DNA of 64,000 nucleotides from an uncultured Oscillospiraceae bacterium (GTDB lineage Bacteria > Bacillota > Clostridia > Oscillospirales > Oscillospiraceae), in assembly GCA_944382995.1 (NCBI GenBank), contig CALWOF010000001.1, positions 57,504-121,503 on the forward strand, written 5' to 3'. The notes under the pieces are model-generated. The model had not been told where the DNA came from, searched no databases, and saw only the letters and a list, made by a program, of their open reading frames with translations. Both the position numbers and the translations under genes were made by a program. Of this stretch, positions 1,232-6,868 are shown piece after piece (positions within the stretch are counted from its first letter, which is position 1; every line of letters starts with the position of its first letter).

Positions 1232-2065
1232 ATGAACGAGAAAAAATGCAAAGTTCTGGCGGCCCAGATCCGGCTGGAAACGCTGAAGGTCATCCACTCC
1301 CGGGGCTTCGGTCACGTGGGCGGGTCCATGGACCTGGCGGACCTGATGGCCGTCCTGTACGGGGAGGTCATGAAGTTCGATCCCAAGAATCCCCGCTGGG
1401 AGGACCGTGACTGGCTTGTCCTCTCCAAGGGCCATGCCGGCCCCGTGGCCTACGCCACCTTCGGCATCATGGGCTATTATCCGCTGGAGGAGGCCTATAC
1501 CCTCAACCATCCCCACACCAAGTTCCCCAGCCATACGGACCGGAAGCTGACTCCCGGCGTGGATCTGACCACCGGCTCTCTGGGCCAGGGTGTTTCCACC
1601 GCCACCGGCGCCGCCCTGGGCAACAAGATCGACGGCCGTGACAACCACGTCTTCTGCGTCATCGGCGACGGTGAGGCCGACGAGGGCCAGGTCTGGGAGG
1701 GCCTCCACTTCGCCTACGCCCACAAGCTGGACAACATCATCTATTTCATCGACAACAACGGCTATCAGCTGGACGGCCCCACCGACGACATCCTGGCCCA
1801 TGGGAGCCTGGCCAAGAAGGCGGAGGCCTTCGGCCTGTACACCCAGGAGATCGACGGCCACGACGTGACCGCCATCTACAACGCCATCCAGAATGCCTAC
1901 GCCAAGAAGGGCGTGCCCAGCTGCATCGTGCTGGACACCTGCAAGGGCAAGGGCGCCACGTTCGCCGAGCCCAAGCACGACCACTCCTCTCAGCCCAATG
2001 AAGAGCAGTGGGCCGAGGCGCTGGCCGCCGCTGAGAAGGCCTACGAAGACGCCAAGAACGCTTAA
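1232..2065 (+). CDS. Transketolase, N-terminal (thiamine-diphosphate-binding) subunit
   Basis: This is one half of a split transketolase of the non-oxidative pentose phosphate pathway, interconverting C5, C6, C3 and C4 sugar phosphates. The 277-residue product carries the family landmarks HSRGFGHVGGSMD (near residue 25), SKGHAGP, a GSLGQGVSTATGAALG loop and the thiamine-diphosphate/Mg motif GDGEADEGQVWEG followed about 25 residues later by DNNG. The size is right for an N-subunit (about 270-280 aa). AAGGAAAGGAAG lies 8-10 nt before the ATG at 1232; the longer frame from 962 is untranslated leader. The partner subunit follows after 14 nt, so the two are almost certainly made in equal amounts from one mRNA. 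Confidence 0.95.
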   Translation: MNEKKCKVLAAQIRLETLKVIHSRGFGHVGGSMDLADLMAVLYGEVMKFDPKNPRWEDRDWLVLSKGHAGPVAYATFGIMGYYPLEEAYTLNHPHTKFPSHTDRKLTPGVDLTTGSLGQGVSTATGAALGNKIDGRDNHVFCVIGDGEADEGQVWEGLHFAYAHKLDNIIYFIDNNGYQLDGPTDDILAHGSLAKKAEAFGLYTQEIDGHDVTAIYNAIQNAYAKKGVPSCIVLDTCKGKGATFAEPKHDHSSQPNEEQWAEALAAAEKAYEDAKNA

Positions 2066-2079
2066 GGAGGGTGAGAGCA

Positions 2080-3054
2080 ATGAATGTGAAACTGATCGGA
2101 AAGCATGAAAAGGATTCCCGGGCCTGCCGGGACGGTCTCGCTCTGACCTTGAACGAGATGATGGCGCAGGACAAGTCCATCTGCTATGTGGACTGCGACC
2201 TGATGGGCTGCATCAACACCAAGATGCTGCGGAAGAACTACCCCGACCGTGCCTTCGAGGCCGGCATCGCCGAGGCCAACGGCGCCGGCGTGTCCGCGGG
2301 CCTCGCCGCCACCGGCAAGAAGGTCTTTTTCCACTCCTTCGGCACCTTCTCCTCCCGTCGGTGCTATGACCAGATCTACATGTCCGCCGCCTATGCCGGG
2401 CTGACGGTCCATGTGTTGGGGTCCGACGCCGGCGTTACCGCCGCTTTCAACGGCGGCACCCACATGCCGCTGGAGGATGCGGCCATGTACCTGTCCATCC
2501 CCGAGACCACCGTGCTGGACGCGGCGGACTATGACCAGCTGGCGAGCATCACCCGGCAGCTGGTGAACATCGACAAGGGCGTCACCTACACCCGGTTCGT
2601 CCGCAAGGGCATCATCCAGGTGTACGGCGAGGGCAGCGAGTTTGAGATCGGCAAGGGCGTGGTGCTCCACGAGTCCGACAAGGACCAGGCCACCATCATC
2701 ACCTCCGGCATCATGGTGGACGAGTCCCTGAAGGCCTATGAGGCCCTGCAGGCGGAGGGCATCTCCGTCCGGGTCATCGACATGTTCACCTGGAAGCCCC
2801 TGGATGAGGAGCTGGTGGTCAAGGCCGCCAAGGAGACCGGCGCCATCGTCACCGCCGAGAACCACAACGTCACCTGCGGCCTGGGCTCCGTCGTGGCCAA
2901 CTGCCTGGTCAAGAACGCCCCCGCTGTGCAGGAGTTCGTGGGGGTCCAGGACCTGTTCGGTCAGGTCGGTCCCCAGGACTTCCTGATGGACGAGTACGGC
3001 CTGCGTGCCGCCAATATCGTGGCCGCCGTCAAGAAGGCCATCGCCCGCAAGTAA
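2080..3054 (+). CDS. Transketolase, C-terminal (pyrimidine-binding) subunit
   Basis: This is the second half of the split transketolase and forms the active site with the preceding subunit. It is 324 residues: a pyrimidine-binding domain with the catalytic-glutamate region DRAFEAGIAEANGAGVSAGLA (quoted in part), FHSFGTFSSRR and a substrate-contact segment GSDAGVTAAFNGGTHMPLED, then the C-terminal fold from about residue 200 (VRVIDMFTWKPLDEE). GGAGGGTGAGAGCA directly after the previous stop provides the ribosome site and supports the ATG at 2080 over a GTG at 2071. Split transketolases are common in Clostridia. The reaction is well supported, but the physiological substrate (sugar phosphate or deoxyxylulose-type) cannot be told from sequence alone. 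Confidence 0.93.
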   Translation: MNVKLIGKHEKDSRACRDGLALTLNEMMAQDKSICYVDCDLMGCINTKMLRKNYPDRAFEAGIAEANGAGVSAGLAATGKKVFFHSFGTFSSRRCYDQIYMSAAYAGLTVHVLGSDAGVTAAFNGGTHMPLEDAAMYLSIPETTVLDAADYDQLASITRQLVNIDKGVTYTRFVRKGIIQVYGEGSEFEIGKGVVLHESDKDQATIITSGIMVDESLKAYEALQAEGISVRVIDMFTWKPLDEELVVKAAKETGAIVTAENHNVTCGLGSVVANCLVKNAPAVQEFVGVQDLFGQVGPQDFLMDEYGLRAANIVAAVKKAIARK

Positions 3055-3129
3055 CTTCCGGATACCCGGCGGGGCCCCACCGGGCCCCGCCTGTATCGCC
3101 ATATTTCATTTGTAAAGGAGAAATGTACC

Positions 3130-4305
3130 ATGGACGCATTTTCTGCTTCCCTGATGGCGGACAAGAGAGAGATCATCTTTGCCCCGACGGTGTACAAGTT
3201 CCAGACCTTCGCCCAGATGGCGGAGGAGTTCAAGCTGAATGAGCGGGATGTGGTGCTGACCAACGAGTTCATCTACACCCCCTTCATGAAGGACCTTGGG
3301 CTGAAGTGCCACTATGTGTTCCAGGAGAAGTTCGGCGCCGGCGAGCCCAGCGAGGAAATGATCCAGGTCATGTACGACGCCATCCCCTACGACAGCTATG
3401 ACCGCGTCATCGCCGTGGGCGGCGGCGCCATCATGGACCTGTGCAAGCTGCTGGGCTGCAAGCGGCCCGACACGGTCCACAACCTGTACTTCAAGCGCTT
3501 CCCCGTGGTGCATGAGAAGGACGTCATCGCCATCCCCACCACCTGCGGCACCGGCTCTGAGTGCACCAACATCTCCGTGGCCATCGTCAAGGACGAGAAG
3601 GACGGCGTGCTCACCGGCGGCGAGACCAAGCTGGGCCTGGTGTCCGACGACATCATCCCCAACAAGGTGTGCCTGATCCCGGAGCTGCTCAAGACCCTGC
3701 CCTACAAGCCCTTCGCCTGCTCCGCCATCGACGCGCTGGTCCACGCCACCGAGTCCTTCCTGAGCCCCCACCGCAAGACCATGACCAGCGAGCTGTTCAG
3801 CGAGAAGGCCATGGACGTGATCCTCAAGGGCTTCAAGCTGATCGACGAGAAGGGCCAGGACGCCCGGTTCGAGTATATGGACCAGTTCGTCACCGCCTCC
3901 TTCTACGCCGGCATCGCCTTCCTGAAGGCCGGCTGCGGCCCGGTCCACGGCATGAGCTTCCCCCTGGGCGGCACCTATCACGTGCCCCACGGCGAGAGCA
4001 ACTACATGCTCTTCGGCGCCATCATGGACTACTATGACGAGCACAAGCCCGACGGCGAGATCATGCGCTTCAAGGAGCTGGTGGCCAAGATCCTGGGCTG
4101 CGACGTCAAGGACGCCATCCCCGAGATGAACGCTCTGCTGCAGCGCATCCTGCCCCTGCGCCCCCTGCGGGACTGCGGCTTCACCGAGGCCGACTTCAAG
4201 GCCTTCCCCCTGTCCGTGGAGGCCAACCAGCAGCGCCTGATGACCAACGCCTACTATCCCTTCGACCTGGAGTCCGAAGAGGCCATCTATCGCAAGTGCT
4301 ATTGA
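3130..4305 (+). CDS. 4-Hydroxybutyrate dehydrogenase (iron-type alcohol dehydrogenase)
   Basis: NAD(H)-dependent interconversion of succinate semialdehyde and 4-hydroxybutyrate, a step in succinate or 4-aminobutyrate routes to butyrate. The 391-residue protein resembles the Clostridium kluyveri 4-hydroxybutyrate dehydrogenase as I remember it, with the same landmarks: VLTNEFIYTPF, VFQEKFGAGEPSEEM, the nucleotide-binding VGGGAIMDLCK, PTTCGTGSE, and the metal ligands in SAIDALVHATE, GPVHGMSFPLG and YHVPHGESN. A clean AAAGGAG precedes the ATG. It lies 75 nt after the transketolase genes with no terminator between and ends at a strong terminator, so it is probably in their operon, which is an unusual pairing. 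Other Fe-ADH substrates remain possible. Confidence 0.82.
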   Translation: MDAFSASLMADKREIIFAPTVYKFQTFAQMAEEFKLNERDVVLTNEFIYTPFMKDLGLKCHYVFQEKFGAGEPSEEMIQVMYDAIPYDSYDRVIAVGGGAIMDLCKLLGCKRPDTVHNLYFKRFPVVHEKDVIAIPTTCGTGSECTNISVAIVKDEKDGVLTGGETKLGLVSDDIIPNKVCLIPELLKTLPYKPFACSAIDALVHATESFLSPHRKTMTSELFSEKAMDVILKGFKLIDEKGQDARFEYMDQFVTASFYAGIAFLKAGCGPVHGMSFPLGGTYHVPHGESNYMLFGAIMDYYDEHKPDGEIMRFKELVAKILGCDVKDAIPEMNALLQRILPLRPLRDCGFTEADFKAFPLSVEANQQRLMTNAYYPFDLESEEAIYRKCY

Positions 4306-4334
4306 TCCTCTCCCCTGAACGCCATCAGGGAACC

Positions 4335-4372
4335 AAAGAGACCGCTCCTTCCGGAGCGGTCTCTTTCCGTTT
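4335..4372 (+). terminator. Rho-independent terminator of the transketolase/4hbD operon
   Basis: AAAGAGACCGCTCC-tt-CCGGAGCGGTCTCTTT: a stem of at least 12 bp followed by a T-rich tail (4361-4373). Confidence 0.9.
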
Positions 4373-4385
4373 CTCCCCCCGGGCC

Positions 4386-4413
4386 TTGCAATCCGCCGGA
4401 AATGTGCTATACT
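4386..4413 (+). promoter_or_regulatory. Promoter of niaR
   Basis: TTGCAA (4386-4391), 16-nt spacer, TATACT (4408-4413). The next bases form a perfect palindrome at the expected +1 region. Confidence 0.65.
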
Positions 4414-4414
4414 G

Positions 4415-4426
4415 CTGTCATGACAG
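4415..4426. promoter_or_regulatory. Candidate NiaR auto-operator
   Basis: CTGTCATGACAG is a perfect 12-bp palindrome immediately downstream of the niaR -10 box. Its core TGTC-AT-GACA has the same architecture as the core TGTC-TT-GACA of the large palindrome upstream of the transporter gene, which suggests NiaR represses itself. Confidence 0.55.
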
Positions 4427-4441
4427 AGAGGAGGCGGTCCC

Positions 4442-4954
4442 ATGCGGGCAGAGGAACGGCGGCAGGCCATCCGTGAGATCCTGCGGACAGCAGAAAAGCC
4501 CGTCAGCGCCGCGGCGCTGGCAGCCCGGTTCTCCGTCAGCCGTCAGATTATCGTGGGGGACATCGCCCTGCTGCGGGCCGCCGGAGAGGCCATCTCCGCC
4601 ACCCCCCGGGGCTATGTGACGGAGCGGGCTCCGGCCGGCCTCGTTCGCCGGGTGGCGGTCCGGCACCGGGCGGAGCAGATGGGCGACGAGCTCAACGCCA
4701 TGGTGGACAACGGCTGCACGGTGCTGGACGTCATCGTGGAGCACCCGGTCTACGGCCAGCTGACAGGCCCCCTGCGCCTCTCCAGCCGGTATGACGTGAG
4801 CCAGTTCCTCGCCCGGTGCGGCCGGGCGGACGCCCGTCCCTTGTCGGAGCTCACGGAAGGGATCCACCTTCACACCCTCTCCTGCCCGGACGAGGCGGCC
4901 TACGAGCGGGTCTGCCAGACGCTCCGGCGGTTGGAGATCCTGCTGGAGGGCTGA
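4442..4954 (+). CDS. niaR: NiaR/YrxA-family niacin-responsive repressor
   Basis: Transcription factor that senses nicotinic acid and represses NAD-precursor genes. The 170-residue product has an N-terminal HTH_11 winged helix (residues 1-55, EERRQAIREILRTAEKPVSAAALAARF quoted in part) and a C-terminal 3H domain, with histidines in VEHPVYGQL, SSRYDVSQF context and GIHLHTLSCPD. Domain order and length match YrxA/NiaR. GGAGGCGGTCCC precedes the ATG. It is transcribed toward the EIIC-like transporter, which has its own promoter and a large palindromic operator 37-72 nt after the niaR stop. Self-regulation is likely from the palindrome at 4415-4426. Confidence 0.9.
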   Translation: MRAEERRQAIREILRTAEKPVSAAALAARFSVSRQIIVGDIALLRAAGEAISATPRGYVTERAPAGLVRRVAVRHRAEQMGDELNAMVDNGCTVLDVIVEHPVYGQLTGPLRLSSRYDVSQFLARCGRADARPLSELTEGIHLHTLSCPDEAAYERVCQTLRRLEILLEG

Positions 4955-4962
4955 AAAAGCAG

Positions 4963-4991
4963 TTGACAGACCGGGAATTTTCGAGTATGAT
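4963..4991 (+). promoter_or_regulatory. Strong sigma-A promoter of the EIIC-like transporter
   Basis: Perfect TTGACA (4963-4968), 17-nt spacer, TATGAT (4986-4991). The following palindrome covers the transcription start. Confidence 0.85.
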
Positions 4992-5026
4992 ACGGTTTAC
5001 AGGTGTCTTGACACTTGTAAACCGTA
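4991..5026. promoter_or_regulatory. NiaR-type operator: 17-bp inverted repeat
   Basis: TACGGTTTACAGGTGTC (4991-5007), TT, GACACTTGTAAACCGTA (5010-5026): 16 of 17 positions are complementary. It begins on the last base of the -10 box, so occupancy would block RNA polymerase. NiaR is encoded directly upstream. Confidence 0.75.
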
Positions 5027-5054
5027 TTTTACTCTACAGAAACAGGTGATCCCA

Positions 5055-6164
5055 ATGGAGAAGATCCAGGCCTTTCTGAGGCGCAAGAATATCGTGATCT
5101 CCGCACGGCGGTACGGCATCGACGCCCTGGGCGCCATGGCTCAGGGACTGTTCTGCTCCCTGCTGATCGGCACCATCCTCAACACCGTCGGCACCCAGTT
5201 CCACATCGGCTTTCTCACCGCCCAGCTCATCACCATCAACGGCGTGGGCTACACCATCGGCGGACTGGCGTCCTTTATGAGCGGGTCCGCCATGGCGGTG
5301 GCCATCGGCTACGCCCTCCAGGCGCCGCCCCTGGTGCTGTTCTCCCTGGTGACGGTGGGCTACGCCTGCAACGCCCTGGGCGGCGCCGGCGGACCGCTGG
5401 CAGTGCTGTTCGTGGCCATCATCGCCGCCGAGGTGGGAAAAGCCGTCAGCAAGGAGACGAAGGTGGACATCCTGGTGACGCCCATCGTCACCATCCTCGT
5501 CGGCGTGGGAGCCGCATGGGTCATCGCGCCCCCCATCGGCGGGGCGGCCAGCGCCTTCGGCCAGCTCATCATGCGGACCACGGAGCTGCAGCCCTTCTGG
5601 ATGGGGATGCTGGTGTCCGTGCTGGTGGGCATCGCCCTGACGCTGCCCATCTCCTCCGCCGCCATCTGCTCCGTGCTGGGGCTGACGGGCCTGGCAGGCG
5701 GTGCCGCCGTGGCCGGCTGCTGCGCCAACATGGTGGGCTTTGCCGTCCTCTCCTTCCGGGAGAACCGCTGGGGCGGGCTGGTGAGCCAGGGCATCGGCAC
5801 CTCCATGCTGCAGATGCCCAACATCGTGAAGAACCCCCGGATCTGGCTGCCGGCCATTTTGACCTCCGCTGTCACCGGTCCCCTGGCCACCTGCTTTTTC
5901 AAGCTGGAGATGAACGGAGACCCCATCAACGCCGGCATGGGCACCTGCGGCCTGTGCGGCCAGCTGGGGATCTGGACCGGCTGGGTGGCCCCCAGCGAAG
6001 CCGCTCTGGCCAACGGAGCCGCCGCCATCGCCCCCACCGCCTTTGACTGGGCGGGGCTGGTGCTGATCTCCTTCGTCCTCCCCGCTGTCCTCACCTGGGC
6101 CTTCGGCCTGTTCTTCCGGCGGATCGGCTGGATCCGCGAGGGAGACCTGACGCTGCCGCAGTGA
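5055..6164 (+). CDS. PTS_EIIC_2/PfoR-like multi-pass membrane transporter, candidate niacin-pathway uptake protein
   Basis: A 369-residue integral membrane protein with roughly ten hydrophobic segments. Glycine-rich stretches such as YTIGGLASFMSGSAMAVAIG and CNALGGAGGPLAVLFVAIIA, and the C-terminal GMGTCGLCGQLGIWTGW, resemble the EIIC-like membrane proteins grouped with perfringolysin regulator PfoR (Pfam PTS_EIIC_2). No EIIA or EIIB domain and no PTS genes are nearby, so phosphotransfer is unlikely. ATG 5055 follows AGGTGATCCC. The gene is a single-gene unit with its own strong promoter, a NiaR-type operator and a terminator. That placement implies transport of nicotinate, nicotinamide or a related NAD precursor; this is inference from regulation only. 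Confidence 0.75.
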   Translation: MEKIQAFLRRKNIVISARRYGIDALGAMAQGLFCSLLIGTILNTVGTQFHIGFLTAQLITINGVGYTIGGLASFMSGSAMAVAIGYALQAPPLVLFSLVTVGYACNALGGAGGPLAVLFVAIIAAEVGKAVSKETKVDILVTPIVTILVGVGAAWVIAPPIGGAASAFGQLIMRTTELQPFWMGMLVSVLVGIALTLPISSAAICSVLGLTGLAGGAAVAGCCANMVGFAVLSFRENRWGGLVSQGIGTSMLQMPNIVKNPRIWLPAILTSAVTGPLATCFFKLEMNGDPINAGMGTCGLCGQLGIWTGWVAPSEAALANGAAAIAPTAFDWAGLVLISFVLPAVLTWAFGLFFRRIGWIREGDLTLPQ

Positions 6165-6166
6165 GT

Positions 6167-6203
6167 AAAATACCCGGACCGCGATGCGGTCCGGGTATTT
6201 TTA
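6167..6203. terminator. Bidirectional terminator between convergent genes
   Basis: AAAATACCCGGACCGC-gat-GCGGTCCGGGTATTTTT: a 14-16 bp stem with A and T tracts on both sides, serving the transporter gene (plus) and the XRE gene (minus). Confidence 0.9.
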
Positions 6204-6211
6204 GATTTTGC

Positions 6212-6868
6212 TCATTTGTTCAGGCCAAGGAACAGGAGACAGCCGGAGAGGAACAGGGAGCCGTTCCGCATAACGGACAGTTCCATCATCAAATAATACC
6301 AGCCCCGCAGAAGCGGGTACACGGCATTCCCCAGCAGGGGCACCACCGCCCACAGGACGTAGTGGGCCAGGAGCAGCGCTCCCAGGACAACCAACATCTG
6401 CCGGAGCCACCTGGGCTGCAAGCGGATGTCCCCCCACAGAGAAATGGCGGCGGGCAGGAATACTCCCGCCGCGGTATATACAAAGAGCGCCCCGGTAATA
6501 CCGTAGACATAACTGGGCCAAAAGAGATATCCCTTTCTCAGCAGCTGCTCCGACAAATACGGTGCCAGCGTCAGCTCCAGCACGCACCAGACAAGAAACG
6601 CCAGAATACAGACGACGGCGCAGACGATGTACCGCCGCTGGAACCGGGTATAGGGCCGCTCCGCCTGCTCCGGGCCGTAGATCAGCTCCCGGACGTCGGC
6701 GTCCAGGGCCTCCGCCAGGGCAGTCAGGGTCTCGATGTCCGGCTGGGTCTTTCCGGTCTCCCAGGAGGAGACTGCCTGCCGGGTCACATGGAGCCGCTCC
6801 GCCAGGGCGTCCTGGGTCAGACCGGCCCGCTGTCGGAGGGCTTTCAGATTTTTCCCGACCGCGTTCAT
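6212..6868 (-). CDS. XRE-family regulator fused to a four-helix membrane domain
   Basis: A 218-residue protein. Residues 1-65 form a Cro/C1-type helix-turn-helix (RQRAGLTQDALAERLHVTRQ, then VSSWETGKTQPDIETL). The rest has about four hydrophobic segments (IVCAVVCILAFLVWCVLEL, VYGITGALFVYTAAGVFLPA, MLVVLGALLLAHYVLWAVVPL and a C-terminal one). Such membrane-tethered XRE proteins are frequent in gut Clostridia, but what they sense is not known. The start is supported by GGAGGTGGGGAC. It is convergent with the transporter gene and shares its terminator. No partner gene is evident. Confidence 0.85.
   Translation of the reverse strand: MNAVGKNLKALRQRAGLTQDALAERLHVTRQAVSSWETGKTQPDIETLTALAEALDADVRELIYGPEQAERPYTRFQRRYIVCAVVCILAFLVWCVLELTLAPYLSEQLLRKGYLFWPSYVYGITGALFVYTAAGVFLPAAISLWGDIRLQPRWLRQMLVVLGALLLAHYVLWAVVPLLGNAVYPLLRGWYYLMMELSVMRNGSLFLSGCLLFLGLNK

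Follow-up and report, generated by a model that had tools for sequence, protein, structure and literature searches.

INTRODUCTION

Three families of niacin transporters, NiaP, NiaX, and NiaY, are named in the literature on the repressor NiaR, and that literature describes NiaY as uncharacterized, predicted to be NiaR regulated, and known from five Bacilli and Clostridia genomes (PMC5343564, PMC6593275, PMC7713382). Here, we analyze a 64,000-nucleotide stretch (the window) of contig CALWOF010000001.1 from an uncultured Oscillospiraceae bacterium, probably a gut bacterium, in which niaR precedes a gene for a membrane protein of family PF13303 (PTS_EIIC_2) that resembles the IIC component (EIIC) of phosphotransferase system (PTS) permeases. 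Sequence comparison indicates that this protein is very probably a nicotinate (vitamin B3) importer controlled by the adjacent niaR.

NiaP belongs to the major facilitator superfamily and NiaX is of the energy-coupling factor type, both folds other than EIIC. NiaR regulation and a link to niacin are common to NiaP, NiaX, NiaY, and the predicted transporter of the window; the folds of NiaP and NiaX differ from its EIIC-like fold, while NiaY may be PF13303 itself. The locus shares domains, sequence, and operator core with NiaR (YrxA) repressors that use a type I operator (TGT-N4-ACA), and the symmetric arms of its operator reach 17 bp, beyond the published 22-bp NiaR sites. Our literature search found no publication tying a PTS sugar transporter subunit to NiaR and niacin. 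For PF13303, PTS_EIIC_2, or COG3641, the available text yielded a fructooligosaccharide study only, and the accessible parts of PMC6837493 and PMC12934955 do not name the family.

RESULTS

A predicted NiaR operator overlies the EIIC promoter

niaR adjoins the EIIC gene on its upstream side, and the predicted operator lies between them (Table 1). The niaR product carries Pfam domains 3H (114.8 bits) and HTH_11 (53.6 bits) and matches PDB entries 9ebr and 7cv0, named NiaR, and 1j5y, labeled "biotin repressor family" (E values of 2e-40 to 7e-33), which we take to be the NiaR of T. maritima. These domains plus homology to solved NiaR structures identify it as a NiaR regulator. The EIIC protein matches PF13303 with 295 bits (cutoff, 28.9), its sole Pfam match and the one PTS_EIIC_2 match in the 1.94-Mb assembly, which is 76% complete. 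NCBIfam assigned no family to either protein, and a PDB sequence search with the EIIC protein gave no match.

The EIIC promoter matches 11 of 12 consensus bases; four promoter-like sites (two on the minus strand) occur in positions 4300 to 6300, versus 0.3 ± 0.6 in shuffled sequence. The operator, with 16 of 17 arm positions paired around TGTC-TT-GACA, has a left arm that begins at the final −10 base and spans the expected transcription start. A perfect 12-mer palindrome, CTGTCATGACAG, stands directly 3′ of the −10 hexamer TATACT of niaR and suggests that niaR may be autoregulated. A preliminary description of this DNA had placed both palindromes at these promoters and niaR directly upstream of a PTS_EIIC_2-like gene, and each of these features was recovered.

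Inverted repeats with 17-bp arms (at most one mismatch, spacer of 0 to 6) averaged 0.05 per window in 20 order-1 Markov simulations; the real window has 22, counted by register, at about nine places, including the terminator-like hairpin behind the EIIC gene. Because the window holds several long inverted repeats, self-complementarity alone is unremarkable. The remarkable feature is the specific operator core. The exact pattern GTGTCNNGACAC occurs at a single place in the assembly, which is this operator; with up to 2 mismatches it occurs at 414 places, and a reversed control pattern occurs at 875. The core decamer TGTCTTGACA is identical to the core of the B. halodurans oligonucleotide used in electrophoretic mobility shift assays (EMSA) and of the pneumococcal nadC R1 site (PMC7713382 and PMC5343564, respectively). 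The latter also reports that mutation of R1 had no effect and that R2 is the functional nadC site.

Upstream of niaR, the best site contained the exact TGTCWWGACA core in 28 of 75 loci and exceeded its own shuffles in 34 of 75 (overlapping locus sets). A near match elsewhere in the genome, GTGTCTTGACAA at C2:68183 (L115 1496-1517), lies about 140 bp 5′ of an open reading frame (ORF) that by eye resembles glutamine synthetase; it is possibly no more than a −35 TTGACA, and it was not counted as a NiaR site.

Operator presence follows niaR across the class

A 22-bp matrix was built solely from published NiaR sites, the B. halodurans EMSA oligonucleotide and pneumococcal nadC. The class set comprised 293 genomes, 131 with PF13303 above the cutoff and 99 with a 3H-domain gene, the latter being termed niaR positive. 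We scored 106 loci from among the PF13303 places; those left out were the places not fetched, L204 and L299 (no tblastn match with the window protein), and L185 and L238 (<60 bp upstream).

Sites with scores of 10 or more were present upstream of the family gene at 31 of 46 loci in niaR-positive genomes versus 0 of 60 in genomes lacking niaR (Fisher P = 9e-16). At L212 and L266, which are from niaR-positive genomes, the gene start was misread (the proteins had 0 and 12 residues); one of these loci counted as a positive and the other as a negative. Besides 10, thresholds of 8, 11, 12, and 14 were tried, and all five gave P values of <1e-8; at a threshold of 8, the score was reached in 8 of the 60 loci lacking niaR. 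When each locus was instead required to exceed the best of its 30 mononucleotide shuffles, the counts were 31/46 and 3/60 (P = 3e-12).

Since the genomes are related, we applied a correction that used a quick 113-protein tree. The tree yielded 14 independent contrasts in niaR; the operator changed in the same direction in 8.2 of them and in the opposite direction in 0, and it stayed unchanged in 5.8 (median P = 0.008). When niaR was tested on the tree against NadA, no significant association emerged (median P = 0.22). Fifteen loci in niaR-positive genomes had no clear site; three are distant paralogues with 26 to 29% identity (L232, L233, and L300), and the rest may have diverged sites. The operator is conserved upstream of the family gene and dependent on niaR, as expected of a NiaR regulon member.

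In a phylum-wide scan of 60 loci, in genomes where niaR was not searched for, six sites scored at least 10. A fully canonical type I site stood 5′ of the PF13303 gene in L356, and a near-canonical one did so in L354; the gene order of these loci (ytpP/ytpQ synteny) suggests Bacillaceae.

The operator is conserved with and without an adjacent niaR

Close orthologues were the best 80 of 461 matches, from named genomes (73 to 95% identity, not deduplicated, many of them metagenome-assembled genomes), and 78 had enough upstream DNA for scoring. TGTCWWGACA occurred upstream of 63 of these 78 versus 8 occurrences in 596,607 bp elsewhere in the loci. It was present at all 25 loci with niaR directly upstream and at 38 of the 53 without; because of the latter, the operator is no by-product of niaR synteny. 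This conservation, together with the test of niaR dependence, rules out a chance palindrome. The predicted control of the EIIC gene by NiaR, as the preliminary description had proposed, is therefore strongly supported: the operator is kept whether or not niaR is adjacent and, at the main threshold, is absent where the genome has no niaR.

In eleven loci (L175, L177, L190, L193, L196, L199, L226, L227, L229, L230, and L231), a variant operator with TGACAAGACA replacing TGTCAAGACA stands 5′ of the PF13303 gene. niaR is adjacent in most of them, and the variant perhaps reflects a diverged NiaR specificity. In Acetoanaerobium, a TGACAAGACA-type sequence with a low score (10.7) lies some 80 bp 5′ of the gene start used, and replicons of E. 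eligens, Photobacterium, and Fusobacterium carry homologues that have no NiaR site upstream.

NiaR control of pncB, which encodes nicotinate phosphoribosyltransferase, was considered and rejected: 3 of 12 pncB loci of the genus exceeded their shuffles (L383 and L384 with the TGACAAGACA core; L382 barely, with no core), and the genome's own pncB has no NiaR site upstream. Locus L379 has a perfect core, yet it does not score above its shuffles.

The predicted fold is that of an EIIC permease, with no EIIA or EIIB gene alongside

The predicted structure of the EIIC protein matches the glucose-superfamily EIIC fold over 293 to 310 of its 369 residues, essentially its whole length. Identity to permeases of that superfamily (bcMalT, PtsG, and bcChbC) is 10 to 15% in structural alignments. 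Unlike these permeases, the window family shows no conserved histidine (among 58 core sequences, His nowhere exceeds 40% of a column) and no EIIA or EIIB gene beside it, and its homologues have vitamin rather than sugar genes as neighbors. Glu126 is conserved at 93% in the core rows.

The nearest flanking genes tested (niaR and an iron-containing alcohol dehydrogenase upstream, HTH_3 and Dus downstream; the rest of the genome was not searched) include neither EIIA nor EIIB, so that the partners of a sugar PTS permease are not encoded with the EIIC gene at this locus. The earlier statement that both are absent thus stood for the surroundings of the gene. It did not extend to the organism as a whole, which is not without a PTS, since its genome has two matches to HPr.

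Annotated family members that we looked at are labeled "PTS (sugar) transporter subunit IIC." On a 627-kb megaplasmid of Eubacterium eligens (L302), a 70%-identical homologue without operator is separated by a peptide deformylase gene from a fructose EIIC-HPr-EI cluster, perhaps a coincidence of position.

Neighbors of homologues and NAD gene content point to nicotinate

Among 167 loci from the class, order, and phylum, 12 had niaR as the upstream neighbor, which was divergent in one case and shared the strand of the family gene in 11. pncB lay near the gene at 3 of 78 named loci (L046, L049, and L077, the last with the pncB end 13 bp 5′ of the EIIC start) and at 3 of the 167 (L087, L223, and L340); the L340 neighbor was checked by Pfam, and the others were checked by tblastn or BLAST clustering. 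In L334, nadC (TIGR00078, 344 bits; cutoff, 198) ends right at or within the PF13303 gene and follows a nadB-like ORF, cut at its start, that falls just under its cutoff (TIGR00551, 433 bits; cutoff, 453). In L327 and L328, the ORF pattern alone indicates this arrangement.

Two genes 5′ of the family gene in L295, L335, L338, and L345 encode a split molybdopterin hydroxylase (about 420 to 445 plus 328 to 330 residues). The smaller subunit in L374, the same gene as in L335 and the only split hydroxylase compared with PDB, matched the medium subunit of nicotinate dehydrogenase (3hrd) with 338 bits (next best, 153). L374, L375, L376, and L377, from four genomes, contain candidate nicotinate degradation clusters in which the split nicotinate dehydrogenase-type enzyme adjoins the PF13303 gene; related molybdopterin enzymes are encoded close by in L363, L364, and L370 but do not share this type of split. 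The L374 and L377 regions also encode PrpF-, aconitase-, and PrpB-type enzymes, mostly below equivalog cutoffs, which we take to have places in the nicotinate fermentation pathway.

In L377 (genome G282), the PF13303 gene stands between an ndhM-like gene and a gene for an enamidase-like protein that matches 2vun over all 386 residues (823 bits); 2-hydroxymethylglutarate dehydrogenase (Hgd) from the same cluster matches 3cky full length (615 bits). Both PDB entries are E. barkeri proteins, and the cluster holds counterparts of the enamidase and Hgd of the Eubacterium barkeri nicotinate fermentation cluster. The L377 membrane protein (scored as L295) is 63% identical to that of the window; there it would feed catabolism, whereas in the window it would feed NAD synthesis.

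NadA was found in none of the 37 genomes of the genus, which covers the NadA part of the check for missing de novo genes called for in the preliminary description; the PF13303 family was present in 32 of them. In the other 23 genomes of this search, the family occurred in 1 of the 7 that have NadA and in 13 of the 16 that lack it. A weaker trend in the same direction held across the class, with NadA in 35 of 131 family-bearing genomes versus 80 of 162 others (P = 1e-4, uncorrected for relatedness). The organism's own genome carries pncB (E value of 1e-167). The pncB, nadB-nadC, and nicotinate dehydrogenase-type neighbors narrow the predicted substrate to nicotinate and, with the EIIC-like fold and the absence of NadA from the genus, support the earlier proposal of an NAD precursor transporter.

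Other features and a distant plasmid subfamily

Upstream of the locus (window positions 1235 to 4305), a transketolase split into two separate halves (about 1235 to 2065 and 2071 to 3054) is followed by the iron-containing alcohol dehydrogenase, which is above no NCBIfam equivalog cutoff.

A distant PF13303 subfamily is paired with a PanE/ApbA-type reductase on plasmids of lactic acid bacteria. In Ligilactobacillus salivarius (L309), the divergent neighbor is a D-2-hydroxyacid dehydrogenase, and the neighbor in L233 is, by eye, a dehydrogenase of that type. The L307 protein matches 232 plasmid records; in 226, the match takes in 80% or more of the protein. This subfamily looks like a carboxylate (2-hydroxy or 2-oxo acid) transporter.

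Table 1. Positions of features at the niaR-EIIC locus and of plasmid gene pairs
Feature	Sequence	Position	Strand	Basis or remark
Iron-containing alcohol dehydrogenase	Window	3130-4305		Gene 5′ of niaR
niaR promoter, TTGCAA - 16 bp - TATACT	Window	4386-4413	+	Promoter scan
Palindrome CTGTCATGACAG at niaR start, candidate autoregulatory NiaR site	Window	4415-4426	+	Inverted-repeat scan
niaR, niacin-responsive repressor, HTH_11 + 3H domain, 170 aa	Window	4442-4954	+	Pfam, PDB sequence match
EIIC gene promoter, TTGACA - 17 bp - TATGAT	Window	4963-4991	+	Promoter scan; −35 at 4963-4968, −10 at 4986-4991
Predicted NiaR operator, 17-bp arms, 16/17 matched, spacer TT	Window	4991-5026	+	Inverted repeat, conservation; left arm TACGGTTTACAGGTGTC at 4991-5007, right arm at 5010-5026
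22-bp operator TACAGGTGTCTTGACACTTGTA	Window	4998-5019		Core TGTCTTGACA at 5004-5013
EIIC-like membrane protein (PF13303), 369 aa, predicted nicotinate importer	Window	5055-6164	+	Pfam, model fold; possible alternative start GTG at 5046
Intrinsic terminator-like hairpin 3′ of EIIC gene	Window	6167-6201	+	1 found versus 0.9 ± 0.9 in shuffles
PF13303-PanE/ApbA pair	L307	2156-4157		Lactococcus lactis plasmid
PF13303-PanE/ApbA pair	L308	2041-4044		Enterococcus faecium plasmid
PF13303-PanE/ApbA pair	L310	2025-4026		E. faecalis plasmid

DISCUSSION

The PF13303 protein is, with high probability, a PTS-independent nicotinate importer of glucose-superfamily EIIC fold that acts under NiaR in a cell without an apparent de novo route. 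The locus would form a small vitamin B3 acquisition unit. Niacin-loaded NiaR would occupy the operator over the −10/+1 region of the EIIC promoter, blocking transcription, and would also occupy the smaller site at its own promoter; when niacin is scarce, NiaR would release and the importer would be made. The protein would then bring in nicotinate without phosphorylation by EIIA and EIIB, and the nicotinate would serve a cell that apparently lacks the de novo route (no NadA found) and has PncB. Repression by niacin is expected by analogy with the NiaR proteins that have been studied. Transport direction, substrate, mechanism, energy coupling, and PTS independence are predictions from the computed gene identities, operator, coupling to niaR across the class, homologue neighbors, and model fold.

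The family is probably the already predicted NiaY, in which case the mechanism would be the same and would not be new. We consider this likely because PF13303 recurs beside niaR in Clostridia and behind NiaR sites, including those of L356 and L354 outside the class. SEED has a nicotinate-regulated transporter named after B. halodurans BH3254; no publication on BH3254 was found. The description of NiaY as NiaR linked and present in five Bacilli and Clostridia genomes fits such an identity; against it, the accessible text of PMC5343564, PMC6593275, and PMC7713382 does not state the protein family of NiaY. With NiaY predicted in these sources, the "new" of the preliminary description could not be confirmed.

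An ordinary sugar PTS permease, with EIIA and EIIB encoded elsewhere and an incidental NiaR site, would fit the EIIC-like model fold, the HPr found in 57 of 60 relatives (the genome itself included), and the 70%-identical "PTS sugar transporter subunit IIC" one gene from a fructose cluster. It is very improbable given that the recurrent neighbors of homologues are niacin genes, that a conserved histidine is missing, and that operator presence tracks niaR. We give still less credence to a membrane regulator of PfoR type: this idea draws on the family label PfoR/"toxin regulator" and runs against the near-full-length EIIC-like model and PTS_EIIC_2 as the sole Pfam match. Import of a different NAD precursor (nicotinamide, quinolinate, or nicotinamide riboside) in place of nicotinate is also improbable, if less so. 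In its favor, NiaR regulons include further precursor genes such as pnuC (PMC5343564), and an S. sobrinus study takes NiaY as a carrier of both nicotinate and nicotinamide (PMC12735969). The recurrent neighbors pncB and the nicotinate dehydrogenase-type enzymes, however, act on nicotinate itself.

For the family as a whole, we lean toward a main clade of PTS-independent nicotinate importers, which many Clostridia would use for NAD salvage and a few for the catabolism of nicotinate, and a distant subfamily, linked to PanE and 2-hydroxyacid dehydrogenases, that would carry other monocarboxylates.

If nicotinate import by PF13303 is correct, an EIIC-fold protein carries a vitamin, not a sugar, and does so without phosphorylation partners. 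If NiaY is PF13303, the prediction itself predates this analysis, which then contributes the fold, the breadth of the family, the test of niaR dependence, and the link to nicotinate catabolism. In a human gut collection, only 25% of B3-auxotrophic genomes had a confidently identified B3 transporter of a known family (PMC6593275). Because the family occurs in 96 of the 178 class genomes examined that lack NadA, and the annotated members that we looked at carry the label PTS (sugar) IIC, its correct naming would alter predictions of which bacteria import vitamin B3.
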